In this document: piece by piece, positions 2,908 through 14,107 of the stretch
Numbering within the stretch: the stretch's first letter is position 1
Layout of the letters: every line of letters begins with the position of its first letter
NCBI GenBank assembly: GCA_001797815.1
Contig: MGQK01000053.1
Span: 118,422-132,528 of the forward strand
Source of the DNA: Deltaproteobacteria bacterium RBG_13_61_14
GTDB lineage: Bacteria; RBG-13-61-14
Length of the DNA: 14,107 nucleotides
Reading direction: 5' to 3'
Program-made: the position numbers and the translations under genes
The notes under the pieces: model-generated
Databases searched by the model: none
The model's input: only the letters and a program-made list of their open reading frames with translations
What the model was told of the DNA's origin: nothing

Positions 2908-3246
2908 TCAGGGACCGATGATGTCGAGCAGGCCCTCGATGATGCGATTCACCTCCGCTTCCGGCAGGCGGCCTAATTTCTTGCCGAGTCTTTCGGTGGA
3001 AAGGGTGCGAACCTGGCTGATCTTGACCCAGGAGGGTTTGTGCAAAAGGCGCTCGGGCAGGGGATAAGTCAAGGGGAACCCGGCGCGCTGGGGCTGACTG
3101 GTAATCGCCAAGGCCATGATGGTCCCGGAGCGCTCGTTGAAAATCTCCCGGCTGAGGACCAGGACCGGCCGGCGGCGGGTTTGTTCGCGGCCCCGGCCCG
3201 GCGATAGCTCGACCCAGTAGATGTCTCCTCTCAGAATTCGGGCCAT
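2908..3246 (-). CDS. MazF/PemK-family mRNA interferase toxin
   Basis: The product has 112 residues, typical for the family. It opens with the beta-barrel signature RGDIYWVEL, then GREQTRRRPVLVLS, ALAITSQPQ and SWVKISQVRTLSTERLGKKLG. The conserved arginine (R26, in RRRPVLVLS) and Thr49-Ser50 (AITSQ) match the catalytic positions of MazF, so it is predicted to cut single-stranded RNA at a short sequence. Its start overlaps the antitoxin's end by 16 bases, the usual coupling that keeps antitoxin in excess. It ends with the family helix EVNRIIEGLLDII. It should be regulated with the antitoxin from the promoter at 3490-3515. No sign of decay. Confidence 0.93.
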   Translation of the reverse strand: MARILRGDIYWVELSPGRGREQTRRRPVLVLSREIFNERSGTIMALAITSQPQRAGFPLTYPLPERLLHKPSWVKISQVRTLSTERLGKKLGRLPEAEVNRIIEGLLDIIGP

Positions 3247-5385: not shown

Positions 5386-5403
5386 TTACACCGGGTGGTG
5401 AAA
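5386..5403. promoter_or_regulatory. Candidate TetR operator O1, over the tetR start
   Basis: TTACACCGGGTGGTGAAA matches the perfect palindrome at 6055-6072 at 14 of 18 positions, including both CACC and GGTGAAA flanks. It lies just downstream of the -10 box and contains the GTG start codon or codons, an arrangement that would give simple autorepression. Protein binding is inferred. Confidence 0.6.
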
Positions 5404-6054
5404 AAATTGGCGCGATCGCGACCAGGGGTTAAAAATCATCAAGTCGCTGCGGACGAGTGGCTGTCCAACGAGGAGAAAATTCTCCAGGCGGCGCGGAGCC
5501 TGTTTTCGCGAAAGGGTTTCGCCGCGGTGACCACCCAGGAAGTGGCGGATAAGGCCGGGGTGGACAAACGTCTGGTCTTTTACCATTTCCAGACCAAAGA
5601 GAACCTCTATCTGCAAACCCTGGCCGTCTTTTTCCACCGGATCGAAACGCTGATGAAAAATTTTTCGCCGGCGGAACATCAGCCGACCGATCCCTGGCTC
5701 AGCTTGCTCCAATTCAGCGATAATTTCACGACTTTTGTGGCCCAGCACCAGGAGCCGATCCGGATCCTGATCCGGGAAATCATGGACGATGGCCCCTTCC
5801 TCGACCTCCTCACCAAGCGCTACTTCCAGCCCCTGTTCGGGGTGGGGAACCAGATCCTCAAGGACATGTTCCGGGGCCAGAAAAAACCCGAGCAACAACT
5901 GCTCCATTTCCTGGTCAGCTTCGGCGGCGCCAACCTCCTTTATTTCATGATCGAGCCTTTGCTCCGCCGGCTCGGGACCGCGGATCCCCTGGACGCCGAG
6001 AACCTGGAGAAGCGTAAAGAGGAGATGCGGAGACTTATCGCTCGGAACCTCTAA
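5395..6054 (+). CDS. TetR/AcrR family transcriptional regulator of the catabolic operon
   Basis: The product has 219 residues and a normal TetR layout. The N-terminal helix-turn-helix domain spans about residues 25-72 (EEKILQAARSLFSRKGFAA, then TTQEVADKAGVDKRLVFYHF, then KENLYLQTL). A helical ligand and dimer domain (about 75-219) follows. Start is GTG at 5395 or the adjacent GTG at 5398; neither has a Shine-Dalgarno, consistent with the near-leaderless promoter at 5357-5385. It precedes the SDR gene on the same strand with only 35 bases between. Acyl-CoA-responsive TetR proteins (FadR/PsrA-like) commonly control such operons, so an acyl-CoA ligand is a reasonable guess but is not shown by sequence. 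Matching operator candidates lie at its own start and just after its stop. Confidence 0.93.
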   Translation: MVKKLARSRPGVKNHQVAADEWLSNEEKILQAARSLFSRKGFAAVTTQEVADKAGVDKRLVFYHFQTKENLYLQTLAVFFHRIETLMKNFSPAEHQPTDPWLSLLQFSDNFTTFVAQHQEPIRILIREIMDDGPFLDLLTKRYFQPLFGVGNQILKDMFRGQKKPEQQLLHFLVSFGGANLLYFMIEPLLRRLGTADPLDAENLEKRKEEMRRLIARNL

Positions 6055-6072
6055 TTTCACCAATTGGTGAAA
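6055..6072. promoter_or_regulatory. Candidate TetR operator O2, perfect 18-bp palindrome before the SDR gene
   Basis: TTTCACCAATTGGTGAAA is a perfect palindrome filling most of the 35-base gap between the tetR stop and the SDR start. It is similar to the sequence over the tetR start (5386-5403). I found no convincing -35/-10 pair for a separate SDR promoter, so O2 could cover a weak promoter or act as a roadblock to readthrough from tetR. Confidence 0.7.
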
Positions 6073-6089
6073 AAAAGGGGAGCAGGAAC

Positions 6090-6941
6090 ATGGGACTAGT
6101 GGAAGGTAAAGTGGCGATTGTCACCGGCGCCGGCCGGGGCATTGGCCGGGGCGAGGCCATCCTGCTCGCGGCCGAGGGCGCTAAAGTTTTAGTCAACGAC
6201 CTGGGCGTGGAGCTGGACGGCTCGGGCCGGGACCAGAAGCTGGCGGACCGGGTGGTGGAAGAGATCCGGGCCGAGGGCGGGGAAGCGGTGGCCGACTTCG
6301 AGAGCGTGGCCGACCACCAGGCGGCCAAGCGGATCATTGACGCCGCGGTCGCCCAGTTCGGCCGGCTCGACATCCTGGTCAACAATGCCGGCTTTTTGCG
6401 CGACAAGATGATCTACAACCTCGACGAGGAAATGTGGGACTCGGTGATCGCGGTGCATCTCAAGGGCGCCTTTAACCTGGGCAAGTGGGCCTGCCGCTAC
6501 TTCCGCGAAAAGGGCGAGGCCGGCCGCATCATCAACACCACTTCCGCGGCCGGCCTGATCGGGAACGTGGGCCAGTCCAACTACGGCGCGGCCAAGGCCG
6601 GGATCGCCAACCTGACCCTCACCTGGTCGCGGGAGATGGAGAAGTATAACGTGACCGTGAACGCGATCGCTCCCGCGGCCCGCACCCGCATGACCGAGTC
6701 CGCCTTTGGCCAGCTGGAGGCGCCGGCCGAGGACGAGTTCGACTCCATGCACCCGGACAATGTGGCGCCGCTGGTGGTTTACCTGGCCAGCGACGCGGCG
6801 GCGCATCTAACCGGCCAGGTGTTCGGCATCTCCGGCGGCGACATTGACCAATACGAGGTCTGGCAGGTGAAAAAGAGCCTCTCCCAAGAGAGCCGCTGGA
6901 ACCCGGCCGAGCTGGTTGAAAAAATGAAAGGCTGGGCTTGA
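6090..6941 (+). CDS. SDR-family (3R)-hydroxyacyl-CoA dehydrogenase, MFE-2/HSD17B4-like
   Basis: The product has 283 residues. It has the Rossmann glycine motif TGAGRGIG (12-19), an aspartate after strand 2 (VNDLG, D37) that favours NAD over NADP, NNAG (98-101), and the catalytic Ser152, Tyr165, Lys169 (TTSAAG, SNYGAAKAG). The wording VLVNDLG, RVVEEIRAEGGEAVADFESV, GNVGQSNYGAAKAG and NAIAPAARTRMTE is typical of the dehydrogenase domain of peroxisomal multifunctional enzyme 2 and its bacterial relatives. These oxidise (3R)-hydroxyacyl-CoA to 3-ketoacyl-CoA; some work on steroid side chains. GGGGAG at 6077-6082 supports the ATG. The next genes encode the matching hydratase halves, which supports this reaction over FabG-type reduction. 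The acyl substrate is unknown. Confidence 0.9.
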   Translation: MGLVEGKVAIVTGAGRGIGRGEAILLAAEGAKVLVNDLGVELDGSGRDQKLADRVVEEIRAEGGEAVADFESVADHQAAKRIIDAAVAQFGRLDILVNNAGFLRDKMIYNLDEEMWDSVIAVHLKGAFNLGKWACRYFREKGEAGRIINTTSAAGLIGNVGQSNYGAAKAGIANLTLTWSREMEKYNVTVNAIAPAARTRMTESAFGQLEAPAEDEFDSMHPDNVAPLVVYLASDAAAHLTGQVFGISGGDIDQYEVWQVKKSLSQESRWNPAELVEKMKGWA

Positions 6942-6950
6942 TCGGGACCC

Positions 6951-6973
6951 GCCCTTGCTTCGCAAGAGTGGGC
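6951..6973. repeat. Small interrupted hairpin between SDR and MaoC genes
   Basis: GCCC-TTGC-TTC-GCAA-GAGT-GGGC folds into a short stem in the 49-base gap before the first MaoC gene. It resembles other short palindromes here and could affect mRNA processing. No T-run follows it. Confidence 0.4.
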
Positions 6974-6990
6974 TACAAAGAGGAAAAGAG

Positions 6991-7440
6991 ATGGCGGACA
7001 GAAATCTGATTGGCAAGGAGACCCCGCCGGGCCGGGCCGAGGCCAAGGCGGAGGAAATGATCGCCTTTGCCCAGGCGGTGGGCGATCTTCAGCCGGAATA
7101 CCTGGACGAGGCCGCGGCCAAGCGGGCCGGATTCCAGGGCCTGGTCGCGCCGCCCACTTTTCCCATGCGCTTCCTGTTTGACGCGCTCGACCCGGACCTC
7201 TTCTTCGAGCTGGGCCTCAACCTGGCCGGGATCGTGCACGCGGAGCAGGAGTTCATCTACCAGCGGCCGATCATAGCCGGCGAGAAGTTCGTGATCTTCG
7301 GCAAGGTGCACGACATCTGGGAAAAGGAAGGCAAGAGCGGGGTGCTGGACTTTGTTACCTTTGAAGCGACCGGCCTGGAAGAAAAAAGCAAGGAGCACGT
7401 TTTCACCGCCCGGATGACGCTGATCTCTCGCCGGGCTTGA
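6991..7440 (+). CDS. MaoC-like hotdog protein, non-catalytic half of a hydratase 2
   Basis: The product has 149 residues from the ATG at 6991, preceded by AGGAAAAGAG; an upstream in-frame start at 6955 has no better site. It is a single hotdog fold of the MaoC dehydratase N-terminal / FAS1-like type: helix AEEMIAFAQAVGDLQPEYLDEAAAKRAGF, then VAPPTFPM, then the strand-rich part VHAEQEFIYQRPIIAGEKF. At the active-site position it reads GDLQPEY (D32 to Y37), where catalytic members have a histidine in place of the tyrosine. That suggests a substrate-binding partner, as in two-subunit hydratases (HadA/HadB, ChsH1/ChsH2) and the N-half of eukaryotic hydratase 2. Its expected partner is the next gene. 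Confidence 0.85.
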   Translation: MADRNLIGKETPPGRAEAKAEEMIAFAQAVGDLQPEYLDEAAAKRAGFQGLVAPPTFPMRFLFDALDPDLFFELGLNLAGIVHAEQEFIYQRPIIAGEKFVIFGKVHDIWEKEGKSGVLDFVTFEATGLEEKSKEHVFTARMTLISRRA

Positions 7441-7444
7441 AGAA

Positions 7445-7527
7445 AGGCTTTAGGCTTTAGACGTTAGGCACTAGACCCAAGTGAGGATGCATCTTCCCTA
7501 AAGTCTAATGTCTAATGCCTAAAGCCT
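7445..7527. repeat. Inverted pair of NNTAGRC 7-mer repeats between the MaoC genes
   Basis: The left arm (7445-7476) reads as 7-base units TTTAGGC, TTTAGAC, GTTAGGC, ACTAGAC. The right arm (7498-7527), reverse-complemented, reads TTTAGGC, ATTAGAC, ATTAGAC, TTTAG. The arms agree at about 25 of 30 positions, with most differences in the first bases of units. The right arm ends 12 bases before the second MaoC ATG, and both flanking genes should be on one transcript, so the stem would sit next to that gene's ribosome site. Confidence 0.8.
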
Positions 7528-7539
7528 GTGAGAAAGAAG

Positions 7540-7965
7540 ATGGCTAATACAAAACTGAAATTTAATGAGATTTCCGTGGGCCAGGAGTTCGCGGCCTGGG
7601 AGCGGGGGGATCTCAACATTGAATTGTTCCAGGCCTATGGCGAGGCCTCGGGCGACGGCAACCCCATGCACACTGACGAGGAATACGCCCGCGACCTGGG
7701 CTATCCGGGGGTGTTCGCCCAGGGCATGTTGATCATGGCCTTTGCCGCCAAATACCTGACCGACCTTTTCGGCGTGGGCGCGATCCAGCGCATCCATTCG
7801 CGCTTCCGAAGACAGACCTGGCCGGGCGAGACGCTGCGGTTTGTGGCGACCGTGACCAAGAAGTCGCAAGAGGGCGGAAAGAACCTGGTGACCGTGGACC
7901 TGAAGGGCGCCAACCGGGAAGGGGAGGAAAAACTTCTGGGCGAGGCCGTGCTCTTAGCGGACTAG
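7540..7965 (+). CDS. MaoC-like enoyl-CoA hydratase, catalytic half (R-specific)
   Basis: The product has 141 residues from the ATG at 7540 (AGAAAG upstream); an in-frame GTG at 7528 falls within the repeat arm and is less likely. The hydratase 2 active-site motif is complete: SGDGNPMHTD with D39, N41 and H44, followed by GYPGVFAQGM and AFAAKYLTDLFG. These residues add water to trans-2-enoyl-CoA giving (3R)-hydroxyacyl-CoA, the substrate of the SDR encoded upstream. Aligned with the preceding gene, GDGNPMH here corresponds to GDLQPEY there, so one subunit appears catalytic and the other not. A heteromer of the two products is the natural prediction. Homodimeric PhaJ-like action is the alternative. 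Confidence 0.9.
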   Translation: MANTKLKFNEISVGQEFAAWERGDLNIELFQAYGEASGDGNPMHTDEEYARDLGYPGVFAQGMLIMAFAAKYLTDLFGVGAIQRIHSRFRRQTWPGETLRFVATVTKKSQEGGKNLVTVDLKGANREGEEKLLGEAVLLAD

Positions 7966-7975
7966 AAAGAATTAA

Positions 7976-8048
7976 CCACCAAGGCACAAAGACACCAAGG
8001 AGCATAACAGATTTTCTTAAGCTTTGAGTCTTAGTGTCTTTGTGGTGG
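7976..8048. repeat. Inverted pair of NCACNAAG repeats upstream of the thiolase gene
   Basis: The left arm (7976-8000) is made of NCACNAAG units (CCACCAAG, GCACAAAG, ACACCAAG). The right arm (8030-8048) reverse-complements to CCACC, ACAAAG, ACACTAAG, the same series lacking five bases. The loop is about 30 bases. The right arm ends 22 bases before the thiolase start and 11 before its GAGG ribosome site. Confidence 0.8.
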
Positions 8049-8070
8049 AAAAGATCTTCGAGGTAAAGAG

Positions 8071-9327
8071 ATGCCGGAACTGAGAGAAGTGGTGATCGTG
8101 GACGCGGTGCGCACGCCGTTCGGCCGCGGGCACAAGGAGAAGGGGTATCTCCGCAACCTGCGCTCGGACGACATGGGCGTCTTGGTGCTCCAGGAGATCG
8201 TGAAGCGCACCGGGGTGGACCCGGCCGAAATCGAGGAAGTGATCCTGGGCGCGGTCGAGCAACTCGGCGAGCAGGCCCACCCGGCCCGCAACTGTCTGGT
8301 GCTGGCCCACTACCCCTTCGAGGTGGCCGGGCTCTCGGTGGAGCGGGCCTGCGTGACCGCGATGAGCGCGGTGCACGTGGCCGCGCTCAGCATCATGGCC
8401 GGGCTGGGCGACATCTACGTGGCCGGCGGCATTGACAGCATGACCCATATCACCCTGCCGGTGGTCACGATGGACACCGACTTTGACGAGCTCTTGAAGG
8501 AGCCGGGCACCATGCTCAGCTCCATGAACCCCAACCCCCGCATGTATGAGGACCTGAACCCGCTCGAGCTGGTGGGCGGGATCACGGCCGAGAAGCTGGT
8601 GCAGATGTTCAAGATCACCCGCGAGGAGATGGACCACTGGGCGGTGATGAGCAACCTCCGGGCGGTGGCCGCGCAGAAAGCGGGCAAGCTCAAGCAAGAG
8701 ATCATGCCGGTCCCGGCCCACGACCTGGAAGGCAAGGAGTTCATGCTCGACTTTGACCAGAGTCCGCGGGCCGACACCACTTACGAAAAGTGCGCCAAGC
8801 TGCCCACGCCCTTCATGCCCGAGGGCGGGACCGTCACCGCGGCCAGCTCTTCCGGCCAGGCCGACGGCGGGGCCGTGTGCATGCTGATGAGCAAGGAAAT
8901 GGCCCGGAAGAAAGGGCTCAAGCCTTTCGCCACCATCCGGGCCATGGCCGTGGCGGGTTGCGACCCGACCATCATGGGCTGGTCGGTGGTGCCGGCCACC
9001 CGCAAGGCGCTCCAGCGCGCCGGGATGACCGTTGACCAGATGGAGGTGATCGAGATCAACGAGGCCTTTGCCTGCGTGCCCATCGTGTTCATGAAGGAGT
9101 TCGGGGTCACCTCCAACGAGCGCATCAACGTGAACGGCGGGGCCTGCGCCATCGGGCACCCGGTGGGCGCGACCGGGGCGCGGCTGGTGGGGCACCTGGC
9201 CTACGAGATGAACCGGCGCCAGAACCGCTTCGGCCTGGCCACCATCTGCGGCGGCTACGGCCAGGGCGGGGCCACCATCCTCGAGCGGGAGGATTACAAT
9301 TGGGGCGAGTATCGGAAGATAAGATAA
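8071..9327 (+). CDS. Thiolase (acetyl-CoA C-acyltransferase)
   Basis: The product has 418 residues, a full-length degradative thiolase. Catalytic residues are present: nucleophile Cys94 (VERACVTAMSAV), Asn330 in NEAFA, His363 in AIGHPVGATGAR and Cys393 in ICGGYGQGG. The N-terminus VVIVDAVRTPFGR is canonical. The nucleophile loop (ACVTAM) differs from the CGSG of FadA/acetoacetyl-CoA thiolases and looks nearer the trifunctional-enzyme beta-subunit type, but I cannot settle the subfamily by eye. It would split 3-ketoacyl-CoA with CoA to release acetyl-CoA, or propionyl-CoA if the chain is branched. GAGG at 8060-8063 supports the ATG. It follows the hydratase-dehydrogenase set and closes the beta-oxidation turn. 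Confidence 0.94.
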   Translation: MPELREVVIVDAVRTPFGRGHKEKGYLRNLRSDDMGVLVLQEIVKRTGVDPAEIEEVILGAVEQLGEQAHPARNCLVLAHYPFEVAGLSVERACVTAMSAVHVAALSIMAGLGDIYVAGGIDSMTHITLPVVTMDTDFDELLKEPGTMLSSMNPNPRMYEDLNPLELVGGITAEKLVQMFKITREEMDHWAVMSNLRAVAAQKAGKLKQEIMPVPAHDLEGKEFMLDFDQSPRADTTYEKCAKLPTPFMPEGGTVTAASSSGQADGGAVCMLMSKEMARKKGLKPFATIRAMAVAGCDPTIMGWSVVPATRKALQRAGMTVDQMEVIEINEAFACVPIVFMKEFGVTSNERINVNGGACAIGHPVGATGARLVGHLAYEMNRRQNRFGLATICGGYGQGGATILEREDYNWGEYRKIR

Positions 9328-9337
9328 AGAATTTTTT

Positions 9338-9592
9338 AACACAGAGAACACAGAGGGCACAGAGTAAGAAGAAAATTTGGGGTTTAAGGGCCTGTTGCCC
9401 AAACCGGATTGATGATTCCTGGGTAGGGGCGCGGCTTGCCGCGCCCAATCAAATCAGGATGATGGGCAGGGCAAGCCCTGCCCCGACGGACTAAAACACG
9501 ACAGAAAATGATTTCGGCAACAGGCCCTTAAGAAAGCAAAAGAATTTCTTTTTTAGCATAAAAATCTCTGTGTGCTCTGTGCGCTCTGTGTT
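9338..9592. repeat. Inverted pair of NNCACAGAG 9-mer repeats enclosing a second element
   Basis: The left arm (9338-9364) is three units of NNCACAGAG (AA, AA, GG as variable bases). The right arm (9566-9592), reverse-complemented, is again three units (AA, CG, CA). The arms agree at 23 of 27 positions and every difference lies on the two variable bases. The loop of about 200 bases contains the whole element at 9384-9531. Together they fill the 287-base gap between thiolase and acyl-CoA dehydrogenase. Translations give peptides like LCALCVLCV, an artefact of the repeat. Confidence 0.88.
9384..9531. repeat. 148-bp element with 16-bp perfect inverted ends and two palindromes
   Basis: TTAAGGGCCTGTTGCC (9384-9399) is exactly reverse-complemented at 9516-9531. 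Inside are GGGCGCGGC-TT-GCCGCGCCC (9427-9446, preceded by GTAG) and GGGCAGGGC-AA-GCCCTGCCC (9464-9483). Both have 9-bp arms and a 2-base centre, the same design as the pair at 5072-5122. It sits wholly inside the NNCACAGAG pair, which points to stepwise insertion. No coding capacity is evident. Confidence 0.8.
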
Positions 9593-9614
9593 TAAATCCT
9601 GAAGGAGTTGAAAA

Positions 9615-10784
9615 ATGGATTTTCGGTTGTCAGAGGAAGAGCAACAGGTCCGGGACGCGGTCCAGAAGTTCATGGAGCGCGAGGTGCTGCCCCTGGAGGA
9701 GAAGCACAAGGAAACGGTCTGGGAAGGCCGGTTCACCGAGGAGGTGCGGGCGCTGGGCGCCCAGGTGCGCAAGAAGTCGGTGGAGCTGGGCTACTACACC
9801 CTGCACCTGCCGGAGTCGGCGGGCGGCGGGGGCCTCAGCCACGTGGCCCTGACCGCGGTGCGGGAGGCGATCGCCAGCTCCGGCACCGTCATCCTCGGCC
9901 TCTATGTCCTCGGGGACCCGCCCATGGGCCCGACCGGGATGCTGATCGCCTGCACGCCGTTTCAGAAAGAGAAATACCTCGAGCCGCTGATGAAAGGCGA
10001 GAAGACCACCTGCTTTGCCCTGACCGAGCCGGGAGCCGGCTCGGACGTGGCCGCGATCAAGACCCGGGCCGTGAAAAAAGGGGACCAGTACATCCTCAAC
10101 GGCCAAAAGCATTTCATCTCCAACGGGCCCTATTGCGACTTTGCCCAGGTCTTTGTCATGACCGACCCGGCCAAGGGCCTGAAAGGCGGCTGCTCGCTGT
10201 TCCTGGTGGACGCGGACACGCCCGGCTTCACCCGGCGGCTGCAGAAATCCATGGGCGATGACGACTTCCAGGCCGAGTTTTTCTTCGAGGACTGCGCGGT
10301 GCCGGCCGCGAACCTGGTGGGCACCGAGGGCTTGGGCTTTGTCGAGGCGATGAAGTGGCTGAGCGCCGAGCGGCTGATCGTGGCCATCAACGGCGTGGGC
10401 ATCGCCCAATATCTCCTCGACCTGGGCGTGGACTACGCCAAGGTGCGCGAGCAGTTCGGCCAGCCGATCAAGAACTTCCAGGCCATCCAGTGGATGCTGG
10501 CCGACGTGGCCACCGAGATCTACGCCGCCCGCTGGATGACCTACCATTGCGCCTGGCTGATTGACCAGGGCCAGAACGCGATGCGGGAAATCTCCATGGC
10601 CAAGCTCTTCGCCTCGGAGATGGCCTTTACCGCCGCGGACAAGATCCTGCAGGTGCACGGCGGCATGGGCTACATGAAGGAGCTGCCGGTCGAGCGCCTG
10701 TTCCGCCTGGCCCGCCTGCTCCGCATCGGCGGCGGGACTTCGGAGATCCAGCGCTGGGTGATTGCCAGGTCGCTGGGACTTTAA
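9615..10784 (+). CDS. Acyl-CoA dehydrogenase, isovaleryl/long-chain-type catalytic base
   Basis: The product has 389 residues, normal for the family. It has the N-terminal helical domain (MDFRLSEEEQQVRDAVQKFM), the flavin/substrate motif CFALTEPGAGSD, NGQKHFISNG, and the C-terminal helices with VREQFGQPI, QVHGGMGYMKELPVERLFR and GGTSEIQRWVIAR. The medium-chain-type catalytic glutamate just before GTSEIQR is glycine here (G373). A glutamate is instead at Glu252 (SAERLIVA), where isovaleryl- and long-chain acyl-CoA dehydrogenases place it. The enzyme should be active, introducing the trans-2 double bond and passing electrons to ETF. AAGGAG at 9602-9607 sets the start. A branched, long or ring-bearing acyl-CoA would fit, but the substrate is not determined. 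Confidence 0.94.
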   Translation: MDFRLSEEEQQVRDAVQKFMEREVLPLEEKHKETVWEGRFTEEVRALGAQVRKKSVELGYYTLHLPESAGGGGLSHVALTAVREAIASSGTVILGLYVLGDPPMGPTGMLIACTPFQKEKYLEPLMKGEKTTCFALTEPGAGSDVAAIKTRAVKKGDQYILNGQKHFISNGPYCDFAQVFVMTDPAKGLKGGCSLFLVDADTPGFTRRLQKSMGDDDFQAEFFFEDCAVPAANLVGTEGLGFVEAMKWLSAERLIVAINGVGIAQYLLDLGVDYAKVREQFGQPIKNFQAIQWMLADVATEIYAARWMTYHCAWLIDQGQNAMREISMAKLFASEMAFTAADKILQVHGGMGYMKELPVERLFRLARLLRIGGGTSEIQRWVIARSLGL

Positions 10785-10786
10785 AG

Positions 10787-10809
10787 GGAACCGGTTTTAA
10801 ACCGGTTCC
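10787..10809. repeat. Palindrome with GGAACCGGTTT arms between dehydrogenase and SCP-2 genes
   Basis: GGAACCGGTTT (10787-10797) and AAACCGGTTCC (10799-10809) are perfect 11-bp arms around a single T. As RNA this gives an 8-bp GC-rich stem with a 7-base loop, and a run of seven T begins five bases later. It could be a weak terminator or processing site lowering or protecting the downstream mRNA. Similar palindromes recur in other genomes, so it may simply be a dispersed repeat. Confidence 0.6.
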
Positions 10810-10842
10810 ACTCATTTTTTTGAAATCAGGAGGTAAGGAAAA

Positions 10843-11172
10843 ATGGCAGTCAGTTCGCCCAAGGAATTCATGGAAACGGTTTTGCCGGGCAAGTTGCTGC
10901 CGGAGAAACTGGCCGGCCTGGACCTGACCCTGCAGTTCAGCATCACCGGCGAGAAAGGCGGGGAGTGGGTCCTGATCATCAAGGACAACAAGGCCGAGAT
11001 CAAGGCCGGCACCGTCGAGAACCCCAAGATCACCTTGAAGATGAAGGACGAGGACTACCTGAAGCTGGTCAACGGGGAGCTCTCGGGCCAGAAGGCCTTC
11101 ATGTCGGGCAAGCTCAAGTTCAAGGGCGACATGAATACCGGGATCAAGCTGCAGAAGCTCGGGATCATTTAA
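10843..11172 (+). CDS. Free-standing SCP-2 (sterol carrier protein 2) domain protein
   Basis: The product has 109 residues, one SCP-2 domain and nothing else. The pattern is clear: GLDLTLQFSITGEKGGEWVL, then IKDNKAEIKAGTVENPKITLKMKDEDYLKLVNGELSGQKAFMSGKLKFKGDM, ending in the ligand-tunnel helix IKLQKLG. SCP-2 domains bind hydrophobic acyl-CoAs, lipids or sterols. In eukaryotes the domain is fused to MFE-2 (SDR-hydratase-SCP2) or to a thiolase (SCP-x); here it is separate but in the same operon as those enzymes. It has no signal peptide and is probably cytoplasmic, possibly presenting acyl-CoA substrate. AGGAGG at 10828-10833 is strong, which may mean high expression. Ligand unknown. Confidence 0.92.
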   Translation: MAVSSPKEFMETVLPGKLLPEKLAGLDLTLQFSITGEKGGEWVLIIKDNKAEIKAGTVENPKITLKMKDEDYLKLVNGELSGQKAFMSGKLKFKGDMNTGIKLQKLGII

Positions 11173-11182
11173 GTTTAGCGAT

Positions 11183-12688
11183 GTGAAAACAATCATTCCG
11201 ACAGCGCGGAGATTTTGGCTCCGGCCGGGGAGACAGATTCTCGTCTGCCTGCTCGGGGTTCTGGCCGCCCTGCAAGTGGTGGGGGCCGGTCCGACCGCGA
11301 ACGGCGGGACCCAGGCCGAAGCGGTCTTCGACCGGATGGCGGCGGCCATTGCGGCGCTGAAAGATTACCAGGCCGAGTGGTCTCACTACAGCGCCACGGT
11401 GGGGGGCCATCCGATTGAGGGCCTCCGGACTTCGCAGGGCAAGTTCCTGAGAGAGCCGGCCCGCTCCTGGCAGAAGTTCGTCAAGATGCAGGACAACTTC
11501 CACGACCCGACCACCCCGGGCACCCAGTTGATCTACGACCCAAGGACCGACGAGATCCTGGCCTTGCTGCCCGGCATCCGCCGGCTCCTGGGCGTGGTCC
11601 ACATTTTCGCGGAGGACGTCAAGTGCCGCTGGCTGAACGGGGAAGAGCTGAAAACTGAGGCGCTGTGGGCCTGGCTCGAGCGCTGGCAGGCGCTCAAACC
11701 CTTTGCCCAGATGAGCCTCCGCCAGGACTCCTGGCAGAACAAACCTTACTCGGTCCTGAGACTGAGCTACCCGGTGGAATCGTTCGCCGGCCGGCCGGAA
11801 ATCAACCGGCTGGAGATCTGGGTGGATCCCGAAGACCACTTGCCCCGGCGCTACCAGGGCTTTGTGCCGGGCCGGGAAGAGCCGGTGTTCGATTACCAGC
11901 TCACCCGGCTCGAGCCCAACGTGGGCTTGCGGCAGGAAGACCTCGAGTTCGAGGGCCTCGAGCTCTGGAACTTTCCGGCCCGGTTCGTGGCCAACGCCAA
12001 GGGCCTGGAGAGCTTGCGCTGGCAGCCGCCAGAGCCGGCCGCGGACGCAACGGCGCCGCCGTTTTCGGAGCTAATGGAAAAATTCAGCCGGGCCCTGGCC
12101 CAGGTGCGGGACTACCGGGCCGAGATGGTGTTTTCGGAAAAATACTTCCGGCTGAAGGCCCGGGGAAAAATCCGGGCGTCGGTGATCCGGGACCCGTTCT
12201 TTTTCGCTTTCGAATTGGACCCGGACTTCCGCATCAACCACCTGCACCTGACCTCGCCCGGCGGCCGGATTTGTTTTCACCGCCGCGAGCAGGAAGTGGC
12301 CGCGGAAGGCGGGGGCGCCATGCGCATGGTGGGCGTCCAGACCATGAACGTGAGCGACCCGCGGACTTTCTTCCCGTTCGGCGAACGCCTGGACCAGCTT
12401 AACCTGTTCGCCCTGCTCGACCGGATCCAGTGGTATGCGGAAAAGGGGGAGGTTGCCACGGAAATGGTGAATTACCATGGCCGGGTTTGTCCCCGGCTGG
12501 TCCTCAAGCGCAAGGGCCAACCCCGGCCGGCCGAGATCCAGAACATGGCCGTGGTCCTGGACCCGAAGAGCTGGTTGCCGCTCCGGGTGGATTACTTCGG
12601 CAACCTCGACCCGCAAGGGTTTGCCGAAGTGGATTACCTTAAGATCGAAACCAACGTCGGCCTGCGGGAGGCCGATCTCTATTTTTAA
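11183..12688 (+). CDS. Exported protein with two tandem LolA/DUF1571-like domains
   Basis: The product has 501 residues and a GTG start 10 bases after the SCP-2 stop; an ATG at 11181 runs into TGA at once. No clear Shine-Dalgarno is seen, so coupling is likely. Residues about 1-36 look like a signal peptide (basic stretch, then ILVCLLGVLAALQVVGAG). Two homologous domains follow: about 45-257 and 290-501. Each begins with a helix and a DYxAE motif (LKDYQAEW, Tyr62; VRDYRAEM, Tyr311). Each has a strand with xDPxxxLP (IWVDPEDHLPRRY; VVLDPKSWLPLRV) and closes with NVGLRxxDLxF (246 and 491 onward). The fold resembles DUF1571 and LolA/LppX-type half-barrels that carry lipids. A periplasmic hydrophobic-ligand carrier feeding the pathway is an inference; the family name is tentative. 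Confidence 0.8.
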   Translation: MKTIIPTARRFWLRPGRQILVCLLGVLAALQVVGAGPTANGGTQAEAVFDRMAAAIAALKDYQAEWSHYSATVGGHPIEGLRTSQGKFLREPARSWQKFVKMQDNFHDPTTPGTQLIYDPRTDEILALLPGIRRLLGVVHIFAEDVKCRWLNGEELKTEALWAWLERWQALKPFAQMSLRQDSWQNKPYSVLRLSYPVESFAGRPEINRLEIWVDPEDHLPRRYQGFVPGREEPVFDYQLTRLEPNVGLRQEDLEFEGLELWNFPARFVANAKGLESLRWQPPEPAADATAPPFSELMEKFSRALAQVRDYRAEMVFSEKYFRLKARGKIRASVIRDPFFFAFELDPDFRINHLHLTSPGGRICFHRREQEVAAEGGGAMRMVGVQTMNVSDPRTFFPFGERLDQLNLFALLDRIQWYAEKGEVATEMVNYHGRVCPRLVLKRKGQPRPAEIQNMAVVLDPKSWLPLRVDYFGNLDPQGFAEVDYLKIETNVGLREADLYF

Positions 12689-12718
12689 ACATGGGCCAAG
12701 ACCGTTAAGGGGAGGAAC

Positions 12719-13537
12719 ATGGCCAACGAAGTGCTTTACGAGAAGAAAGGCCGCATCGCCTACGTGACCATCAACCGGCCGGAGCGGAGGAACTCTTTGA
12801 ACCTGCCGGCCATGCGCGGCCTGGCCCGGACCTGGGTGGAATTCCGGGAAGACCCGGAATGCTGGGTGGCCATCCTCACCGGCGCCGGCGAGCGCGACTT
12901 TTGCGTGGGCGCGGACCTCAAGGAGTTCGTGCCCGCGGTGACCGAGAACATCAAGGAGCTGGCGACCATGGAGACCTCGCTCCTGGGCGAGGACTTTGAC
13001 GCGCGCGCGCCGCTGTTGGCCGTGCTCCGGGAGGGCGACCTCTACAAGCCGGTGATCGCCGCGGTCAACGGCATCTGCTCGGCCGGGGGCATGGAGATGC
13101 TCCAAGGCACCGATATCCGAATCGCCGCGGAACATGCTACTTTCTCTATTGCGGAGGTCAAGCGCGGGCTTTTCCCCGGCGGCGGCTCCACCGTGCGGCT
13201 CCCCCGCCAGATCCCCTTTGCCCGGGCCATGGAGATTTTGCTCACCGGCGACCCGGTCTCGGCGCAGGAGGCTTATGCCATCGGCCTGGTCAACCAGGTG
13301 GTGCCCAAGGAAAAATTGATGGAGGCCGCGGAAAAAATGGCCGAGCGAATCCTGGCCAACGGCCCGCTGGCGGTGCGCGCGGTCAAGGAGAGCGCGATCA
13401 AGGGGCTGTCGCTGCCCATTTCCGAGGCGCTGGACCTGGAATTGGAATTCGCGGCTAAAATTTTTGCCACCGAGGACGCCACCGAAGGTCCTTTGGCCTT
13501 CCTGGAGAAAAGGAAACCGCAATGGAAGGGAAAATAG
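12719..13537 (+). CDS. Enoyl-CoA hydratase/isomerase (crotonase) family protein
   Basis: The product has 272 residues, typical length. The N-terminal strand VTINRPERRNSLN, the oxyanion-hole segment FCVGADLKEF (61-70) and both catalytic glutamates are present: Glu126 in SAGGMEMLQG and Glu146 in IAEVKRGLFPGGGSTVRLPR. It is competent for hydration by the family rule, giving (3S)-hydroxyacyl-CoA. The operon's dehydrogenase is of the (3R) type, so this enzyme may instead act as a double-bond isomerase, hydrolase or on a second substrate. A strong GGGGAGG precedes the ATG. It follows the exported protein by 30 bases. Specificity cannot be read from sequence. Confidence 0.93.
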   Translation: MANEVLYEKKGRIAYVTINRPERRNSLNLPAMRGLARTWVEFREDPECWVAILTGAGERDFCVGADLKEFVPAVTENIKELATMETSLLGEDFDARAPLLAVLREGDLYKPVIAAVNGICSAGGMEMLQGTDIRIAAEHATFSIAEVKRGLFPGGGSTVRLPRQIPFARAMEILLTGDPVSAQEAYAIGLVNQVVPKEKLMEAAEKMAERILANGPLAVRAVKESAIKGLSLPISEALDLELEFAAKIFATEDATEGPLAFLEKRKPQWKGK

Positions 13538-13633: not shown

Positions 13634-13831
13634 ATGGGAAAACTGGTGAGCAAGAGGAAGGTCATCCGCGAGCGCGGCCGGATCGTGGTCCGGCATCGCG
13701 TCGAGACCTTGGAGAGCGAAGAGCTTTCGCCTTCGCCCAGGCTCCGCGCGGAGAACAAGTCACTCTCAACGCCCAGGCAGCGCGGCCGCGGCCGGGGCAT
13801 CCACCTGGACCTTGACCGCGGCGATGACTGA
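13634..13831 (+). CDS. Small, highly basic protein, unknown
   Basis: The ORF has 65 codons from an ATG with a good AAAGGA seven bases upstream; a TTG at 13604 is a poorer start. The sequence is strongly basic in the first third (MGKLVSKRKVIRERGRIVVRHR), with arginine-rich and acidic stretches later. No domain is recognised. Its stop overlaps the start of the next gene in ATGACTGA, so the two would be translationally coupled. That and the ribosome site are the main reasons to accept it. It could also be a leader ORF or chance reading. Confidence 0.45.
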   Translation: MGKLVSKRKVIRERGRIVVRHRVETLESEELSPSPRLRAENKSLSTPRQRGRGRGIHLDLDRGDD

Positions 13832-14107
13832 GGCCCGGCCGGTCCACGTCCGCGACATCCAGGCGGAGGCGTTCCTGCTCGGCCCGGACCGGCTGCTCCT
13901 CTGCGGCCGTTTGCGGGACGACCGGCCCTTCGGCCTGGGCGGCACCGGCGGCGAGCCGGAGACCATCCACCACCTGACCCTGGAGCTTACCGTGCGGCTG
14001 CCGGATTTCACCGTGCTCGCGGCCCGGGCCGAGATGCAGGACATCCCCCAGCCCGAATGCCGCCTGGTGCTGGAAGGGGTGAAGAAGCTGGAAGGGCTTG
14101 CCATCAC
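13824..14107 (+). CDS. DUF2889 family protein, N-terminal part (runs off the window)
   Basis: The frame starts at ATG 13824 and stays open to the last base, giving 94 codons of an incomplete gene. The peptide has the DUF2889 pattern: HVRDIQAEAF, then LLLCGRLRDDRPFG, then IHHLTLELTVRLPDFTVLAARAEM, then PQPECRLVLEGVKKLEGLAI. In the family the conserved histidine, aspartate and cysteine fall in the same places. Function of the family is not established. No Shine-Dalgarno is present; the overlap with the preceding small ORF suggests coupling. It continues the operon strand and may or may not belong to the catabolic unit. Confidence 0.7.
   Translation, partial: MTEARPVHVRDIQAEAFLLGPDRLLLCGRLRDDRPFGLGGTGGEPETIHHLTLELTVRLPDFTVLAARAEMQDIPQPECRLVLEGVKKLEGLAI

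Follow-up and report, generated by a model that had tools for sequence, protein, structure and literature searches.

The genome of Deltaproteobacteria bacterium RBG_13_61_14 carries, in a stretch of 14,107 nucleotides that we call the window, a cluster of nine genes lying head to tail on the plus strand (positions 5395-13537, from open reading frame calls). We think it fairly likely (a probability of roughly 65%) that the products of this cluster are the separate members of a (3R)-type beta-oxidation set acting on bulky or branched acyl-CoA, that they work in trans in the manner of the peroxisomal multifunctional enzyme 2 (MFE-2, HSD17B4), and that the cluster is not an MFE-2 that has been dissected. 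The likeness to MFE-2 would come from the same domain families having been brought together repeatedly. The substrate, the stereochemistry, the formation of a complex and the co-transcription of the genes are matters that we infer.

5395-6054, plus strand: TetR-family regulator with a CecR-like C-terminal domain (PF00440, 59.8 bits; PF09209, 29.4 bits), 35 bp 5' of the SDR gene
6090-6941, plus strand: short-chain dehydrogenase/reductase (SDR; Pfam adh_short, 155 bits)
6991-7440, plus strand: hotdog-N, the hotdog half without the catalytic His (PF13452, 102.6 bits)
7540-7965, plus strand: hotdog-C, the hotdog half with the Asp/His dyad, HadB-like (Pfam MaoC, 53.4 bits)
8071-9327, plus strand: 3-ketoacyl-CoA thiolase of the T1/FadA type (Pfam Thiolase_N/C, 196/140 bits)
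9615-10784, plus strand: acyl-CoA dehydrogenase (ACAD; Pfam Acyl-CoA_dh domains)
10843-11172, plus strand: stand-alone SCP-2 lipid-binding protein (PF02036, 75.2 bits)
11183-12688, plus strand: putative exported protein of 501 amino acids with two LolA/RseB/LprG-like repeats (weak DUF1571 match, 17.9 bits)
12719-13537, plus strand: crotonase-type enoyl-CoA hydratase (ECH_1, 208.8 bits)

The nine genes follow one another in this order with gaps of 35, 49, 99, 105, 287, 58, 10 and 30 bp. From the SDR to SCP-2 they are six intact and separate reading frames, each with its own stop and gap; for hotdog-N the start was taken to be the ATG at 6991, a TTG at 6955 being judged less likely. A preliminary description of this DNA had listed the same six genes, with a His-less and then a His-bearing hotdog half, in order in one operon, and the intact frames, the Pfam matches and the active-site residues all agree with it.

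Predicted chemistry of the cluster

The SDR has the Ser-Tyr-Lys triad (S152/Y165/K169) and Asp37 in the motif VNDLG; an Asp at this type of site favours NAD and hence the oxidative direction. It is probably an NAD-dependent (3R)-hydroxyacyl-CoA dehydrogenase, and it is the sole candidate for that activity among the annotated genes of the cluster. Hotdog-N has Tyr in place of the catalytic His (GDLQPEY), at a site occupied by Tyr, Phe or Trp throughout the 10 aligned sequences. Hotdog-C has both the Asp and the His (GDGNPMH), which are invariant in 9 of 9. The first is predicted to be an inert, substrate-binding partner with a HadA/ChsH2-like role, and the second is probably the catalytic half of an (R)-specific MaoC hydratase. 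In ChsH2 the His is likewise replaced by Tyr, and the inert half binds the bulky substrate (PMC11321319). HadA and HadB are the best NCBIfam matches of the pair, yet the scores lie far under their cut-offs (64.4 bits for hotdog-N against HadA); against PF22622, the N-terminal MFE-2 hydratase 2 model (MFE-2_hydrat-2_N), hotdog-N scores 25.9 bits, under the cut-off of 27.

Both ACADs of the region, the one in the cluster and a second one downstream of the window (16806-17960 in window numbering, plus strand), have Gly at the canonical Glu site and Glu at the alternative place in helix G (IGGGTSEIQ and SAERL in the window protein), an arrangement known from isovaleryl- and long-chain ACADs. The nearest PDB entries to the window SCP-2 are the SCP-2 domains of SCP-x and MFE-2. 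The 501-residue protein has no confident Pfam match, and its relatives were found only in its own genome and the two order-mates among 145 genomes searched. Its structure model (pLDDT 69.9) matches RseB, LprG and LolA in Foldseek (best E 2.6e-9), which points to a putative exported protein with a lipid-carrier-like fold. A hydrophobic substrate is suggested because SCP-2 and this exported protein are both present.

The window thiolase has the motifs CxT, NEAF and GHP and scores 400.5 bits against TIGR01930 (cut-off 240.55); thiolase matches in 58 genomes were compared by coordinates. The preliminary description saw in this gene and SCP-2 the parts of SCP-x, a comparison that fails because the window thiolase is of the T1 type with NEAF, whereas SCP2-thiolases carry HDCF at that place (PMC7682436). 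As it is also unfused to SCP-2, an SCP-x or SCP2-thiolase identity is ruled out.

By sequence kinship there is nevertheless an SCP-x-like element beyond the window, aldolase-like and not thiolytic. At its end the window meets a scaffold gap of about 15 Ns, through which a DUF2889 gene reads in frame. Past it, on the plus strand, lie a SCP2-thiolase-like gene at about 14474-15709 in window numbering (L147:9196-10431) and a separate DUF35 gene at 15838-16275 (L147:10560-10997; PF01796, 80 bits). The thiolase-like protein is without the catalytic Cys and without GHP, has YDGF, and finds its best PDB match in 6ok1, 'Lipid-transfer protein' (225 bits). It thus joins an SCP2-thiolase fold, predicted from sequence kinship, the missing Cys, a YDxF motif and a DUF35 partner, the features by which an Ltp2/Sal module is recognised. 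The steroid side-chain aldolases Ltp2 (motif YDHF) and Sal (YDCY) associate with DUF35 domains (PMC12329534). Their catalytic acid is a second Tyr in Ltp2 or the Cys of YDCY, where the protein beyond the window has Gly as third motif residue. The MaoC and DUF35 parts of Comamonas are functional when expressed separately (PMC12502768). A small PD-(D/E)XK_3 gene (GxxExxY-like; L147:11065-11472), likewise on the plus strand, stands between the DUF35 gene and the second ACAD gene.

These observations suggest a pathway. The ACAD would make the enoyl-CoA, and the two hotdog proteins would pair as one pseudo-symmetric (R)-hydratase in which the His-bearing half does the catalysis while the His-less half holds the bulky acyl group, as in ChsH1-ChsH2. 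The NAD-dependent SDR would then oxidise the (3R)-hydroxyacyl-CoA and the T1 thiolase would cut the 3-ketoacyl-CoA, with SCP-2 binding the hydrophobic substrate. Where a branch blocks thiolysis, the downstream Cys-less Ltp2-type protein and its DUF35 partner could cut by retro-aldol cleavage.

Relation to MFE-2 and to bacterial fusions

The preliminary description took the locus for a dissected MFE-2. The kinds of part are indeed the same (an SDR with its triad, an inert and an active hydratase half, and SCP-2), as is their relative order, but descent from MFE-2, or ancestry of it, is contradicted by the phylogenies. The best PDB matches of the SDR are 2et6 (yeast MFE-2) and then the actinobacterial SDRs 3qlj and 7ulh, and it scores about 187-189 bits against the rat, human and fly MFE-2 SDR domains, above the best FabG-type reductases (about 161-162 bits). 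In an SDR tree of 51 rows, whose FabG rows were labelled from our own reading of the matches and whose relatives from the contig profile search are among the matches listed, the human, fly and both yeast MFE-2 SDRs form with bacterial proteins a clade of 15 rows (100/99). The window SDR sits in a separate clade, also of 15 rows (98/91), with Actinobacteria, Methanoliparum (L033), G066 and 3qlj, and an approximately unbiased (AU) test rejects its joining the MFE-2 clade (p=0.0024). A grouping with FabG, named in the preliminary description as a result that would speak against its reading, is disfavoured by the scores and is not formally rejected by the AU test (p=0.106). Another SDR of the same genome (L113, G000:C89, 1803-2822, minus strand) does belong to the MFE-2 clade.

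In the hydratase tree (37 rows) the window pair falls among split, HadAB-like gene pairs in a clade of 23 rows (100/98). A clade of 9 rows (100/100) unites MFE-2 with the fused or linked forms of L169, L067 and L033 and with further fusions from Streptomyces and Marinibacterium. AU tests reject the window pair with the MFE-2-type hydratase (p=0.0011) and with the fused type of G228 and G349 (p=0.0007), and the main split was unchanged when the tree was rebuilt minus three long-branch rows. With two adjacent hotdog genes, one inert and one with the dyad, that group with split pairs, the window has the sequence features of a heteromeric MaoC hydratase of the HadAB or ChsH1-ChsH2 kind.

Partial linkages of the same parts recur among 386 sampled genomes, which include two other members of the same order. 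Hotdog-N, hotdog-C and SCP-2 are adjacent in G121 and G384 (L171/L172), Methanoliparum has an SDR followed by hydratase 2, and G066 (L173) has hotdog-N, hotdog-C, thiolases, an ACAD, SCP-2 and an SDR inside 14 kb in a different order. In the genome of the window itself (4.74 Mb), with 4 MFE-2-like SDR genes, 5 hotdog-N genes and about 6 SCP2 genes, the chance of all three kinds falling within about 5 kb is near 5e-4 (a hand estimate under random placement); their clustering is not due to chance.

That these part types share a function is best supported by fusions. In L169 (G248:C4, 8573-11914, minus strand) a single frame of 1114 codons encodes SDR-hydratase 2 (PF22622 and MaoC)-SCP2x3, by its domains a full bacterial MFE-2 architecture; the trees put its SDR and its hydratase with eukaryotic MFE-2, and a gene for an HDCF-type SCP2-thiolase adjoins it. 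The order is permuted in L168 (G228:C57, 8094-10781, minus strand), which reads SDR-SCP2x2-PF13452-MaoC, with hotdog-N before hotdog-C. L170 (G349:C413, 7030-9060, minus strand) reads SCP2x3-PF13452-MaoC, is cut by the contig end and is followed by a T1 thiolase. L168 and L170, both permuted in order, fall outside the MFE-2 clades and look like separate, independent assemblies from the same parts. Pseudomonas akapageensis (L067) has an SDR-hydratase 2 fusion and L062 a DUF35-SDR-SCP2 fusion. Because the SDR and hydratase domains of the G248 and G228 fusions lie in different clades, the combination of SDR, hydratase and SCP2 probably came together on at least two independent occasions. Nothing direct was found in the literature on a bacterial MFE-2 with SCP2.

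Much of the interest of the locus lies in its comparison with these fusions. In the bacterial loci examined the four-part design of MFE-2 appears to have been assembled more than once: its parts occur there as split genes, as clusters and as fusions, the last with at least two domain orders. Tests can thereby be made of what the combination is good for, and of the reason for which SCP-2 and an inert hotdog half are recruited to it again and again, and eukaryotic MFE-2 can be placed beside bacterial full-length fusions, which bears on the origin of the peroxisomal beta-oxidation enzymes.

The locus as a unit and alternative readings

The cluster may be one operon, which its shared strand and spacing would suit. 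The TetR-family protein is probably its regulator, a role that we infer. Two further features lie between and beyond its genes:

10787-10809, plus strand: near-perfect palindrome with a T-rich tail, a possible terminator or operator, in the gap between the ACAD and SCP-2 genes
13812-14107, plus strand: start of the DUF2889 gene (40 bits), which continues past the window end

Several points weigh against a single (3R)-type set. The palindrome precedes SCP-2, and the 287-bp gap before the ACAD gene holds imperfect inverted repeats of the CACAGAG type; either could split the unit. The 23-mer pattern of the palindrome occurs once in the genome, and it counsels caution without proving an end of transcription, because terminator-like sites in the region are no more numerous than in shuffled sequence. 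The crotonase, which has both catalytic Glu residues, could serve an (S)-hydration route, the Ltp2-type/DUF35 module lies past the scaffold gap, and the size of the substrate is not fixed by sequence alone. The exact gene order, whose conservation the preliminary description had proposed as a check, was found in no other genome among the 386, the two further members of the same order included.

Considered as a TetR operator, the palindrome has no further AACCGGTT elsewhere in the window. Imperfect inverted repeats of the ACACAGAG type stand in several gaps (9336-9595 of the window; L147 10435-10560 and 14185-14337) and resemble a dispersed repeat element. Upstream of the cluster, on the minus strand, a HEPN/nucleotidyltransferase (MNT) pair and a PemK/MazF-like gene (2100-2817 and 2908-3246) look like toxin-antitoxin genes.

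The preliminary description proposed (3R) beta-oxidation of a bulky acyl-CoA, which the kinds of part and the bacterial fusions make plausible, though not as MFE-2 by descent. Ordinary beta-oxidation of medium or long straight-chain or dicarboxylic substrates, with the hotdog pair and SCP-2 as routine accessories and no bulky substrate, has a lesser but appreciable chance of being the right account. The T1 thiolase, the crotonase and the ACAD are all standard enzymes, SCP-2 domains occur in 88 of the 386 genomes, and the best substrate-specific NCBIfam matches fall under their cut-offs: AcrC, EchA19 (nearest to the crotonase, 285.7 bits against 400) and PRK07791 (SDR, 371.8 bits, just under 373). 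No substrate was assigned, because of these low scores. What speaks for bulky or branched substrates is the joint presence of the inert hotdog half, the Ltp2-type aldolase with DUF35, the alternative ACAD Glu, SCP-2 and the LolA-fold protein.

A bolder form of the (3R)-type reading, which we consider unlikely, would add retro-aldol cleavage and direct the trans-acting assembly to sterol-, hopanoid- or isoprenoid-like chains in a little-known phylum. The exported LolA-fold carrier and SCP-2 would hand the lipid to a complex of SDR, inert hydratase, thiolase and Ltp2, and the locus would be a third assembly of the MFE-2 domains, an unfused one, in addition to two fusions that evolved independently.

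A biosynthetic or polyhydroxyalkanoate-related role, in which the SDR and a HadAB-like dehydratase would run reductive acyl-chain elongation, the reverse of beta-oxidation, is improbable. The top-scoring family models include HadA/HadB and 3-oxoacyl-ACP reductase, and FabG survives formally as nearest kin of the SDR, but the NAD-type Asp, the ACADs and the degradative thiolase argue for oxidation, and no ketoacyl synthase (KAS) or acyl carrier protein (ACP) gene is among the annotated genes. Least probable of all is that the genes represent the unjoined state from which the eukaryotic MFE-2 and SCP-x fusions arose, or a copy of them broken up again, a reading for which the order of the parts, the SDR scores and the kinship of SCP-2 speak and against which stand both AU rejections and the NEAF thiolase.

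Comparison with known systems

The window shares with MFE-2 and the L169 fusion an SDR with Ser-Tyr-Lys and the NAD-type Asp, one inert hotdog half, one with Asp and His, SCP-2 and a probable (3R) route. It differs in having separate genes where they have one chain, in placing a thiolase and an ACAD between hotdog-C and SCP-2, and in that its SDR lies outside the MFE-2 clade and its hydratase is not of the PF22622, MFE-2 type. With SCP-x it has in common that both a thiolase and SCP-2 are present, but here the thiolase is T1-type, with NEAF, and unfused. The ChsH1-ChsH2/Ltp2 hydratase-aldolase systems for steroid side chains (the igr operon and Comamonas ORF40-44) likewise combine a two-gene MaoC hydratase, in which the inert half has exchanged His for Tyr, with an Ltp2-type protein, DUF35 and two ACADs. 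Here DUF35 is a gene of its own, the aldolase motif is YDGF instead of YDHF or YDCY, and the SDR, T1 thiolase and SCP-2 are extra. The HadAB-type (3R)-hydroxyacyl dehydratases resemble the window in their adjacent PF13452 and MaoC genes and provide its best NCBIfam matches, although at scores far below their cut-offs and with mycolate synthesis in place of a CoA beta-oxidation context. The split ChsH1/ChsH2-Ltp2 clusters and the HadAB-type hydratases are a better comparison for this locus than descent from SCP-x or MFE-2.

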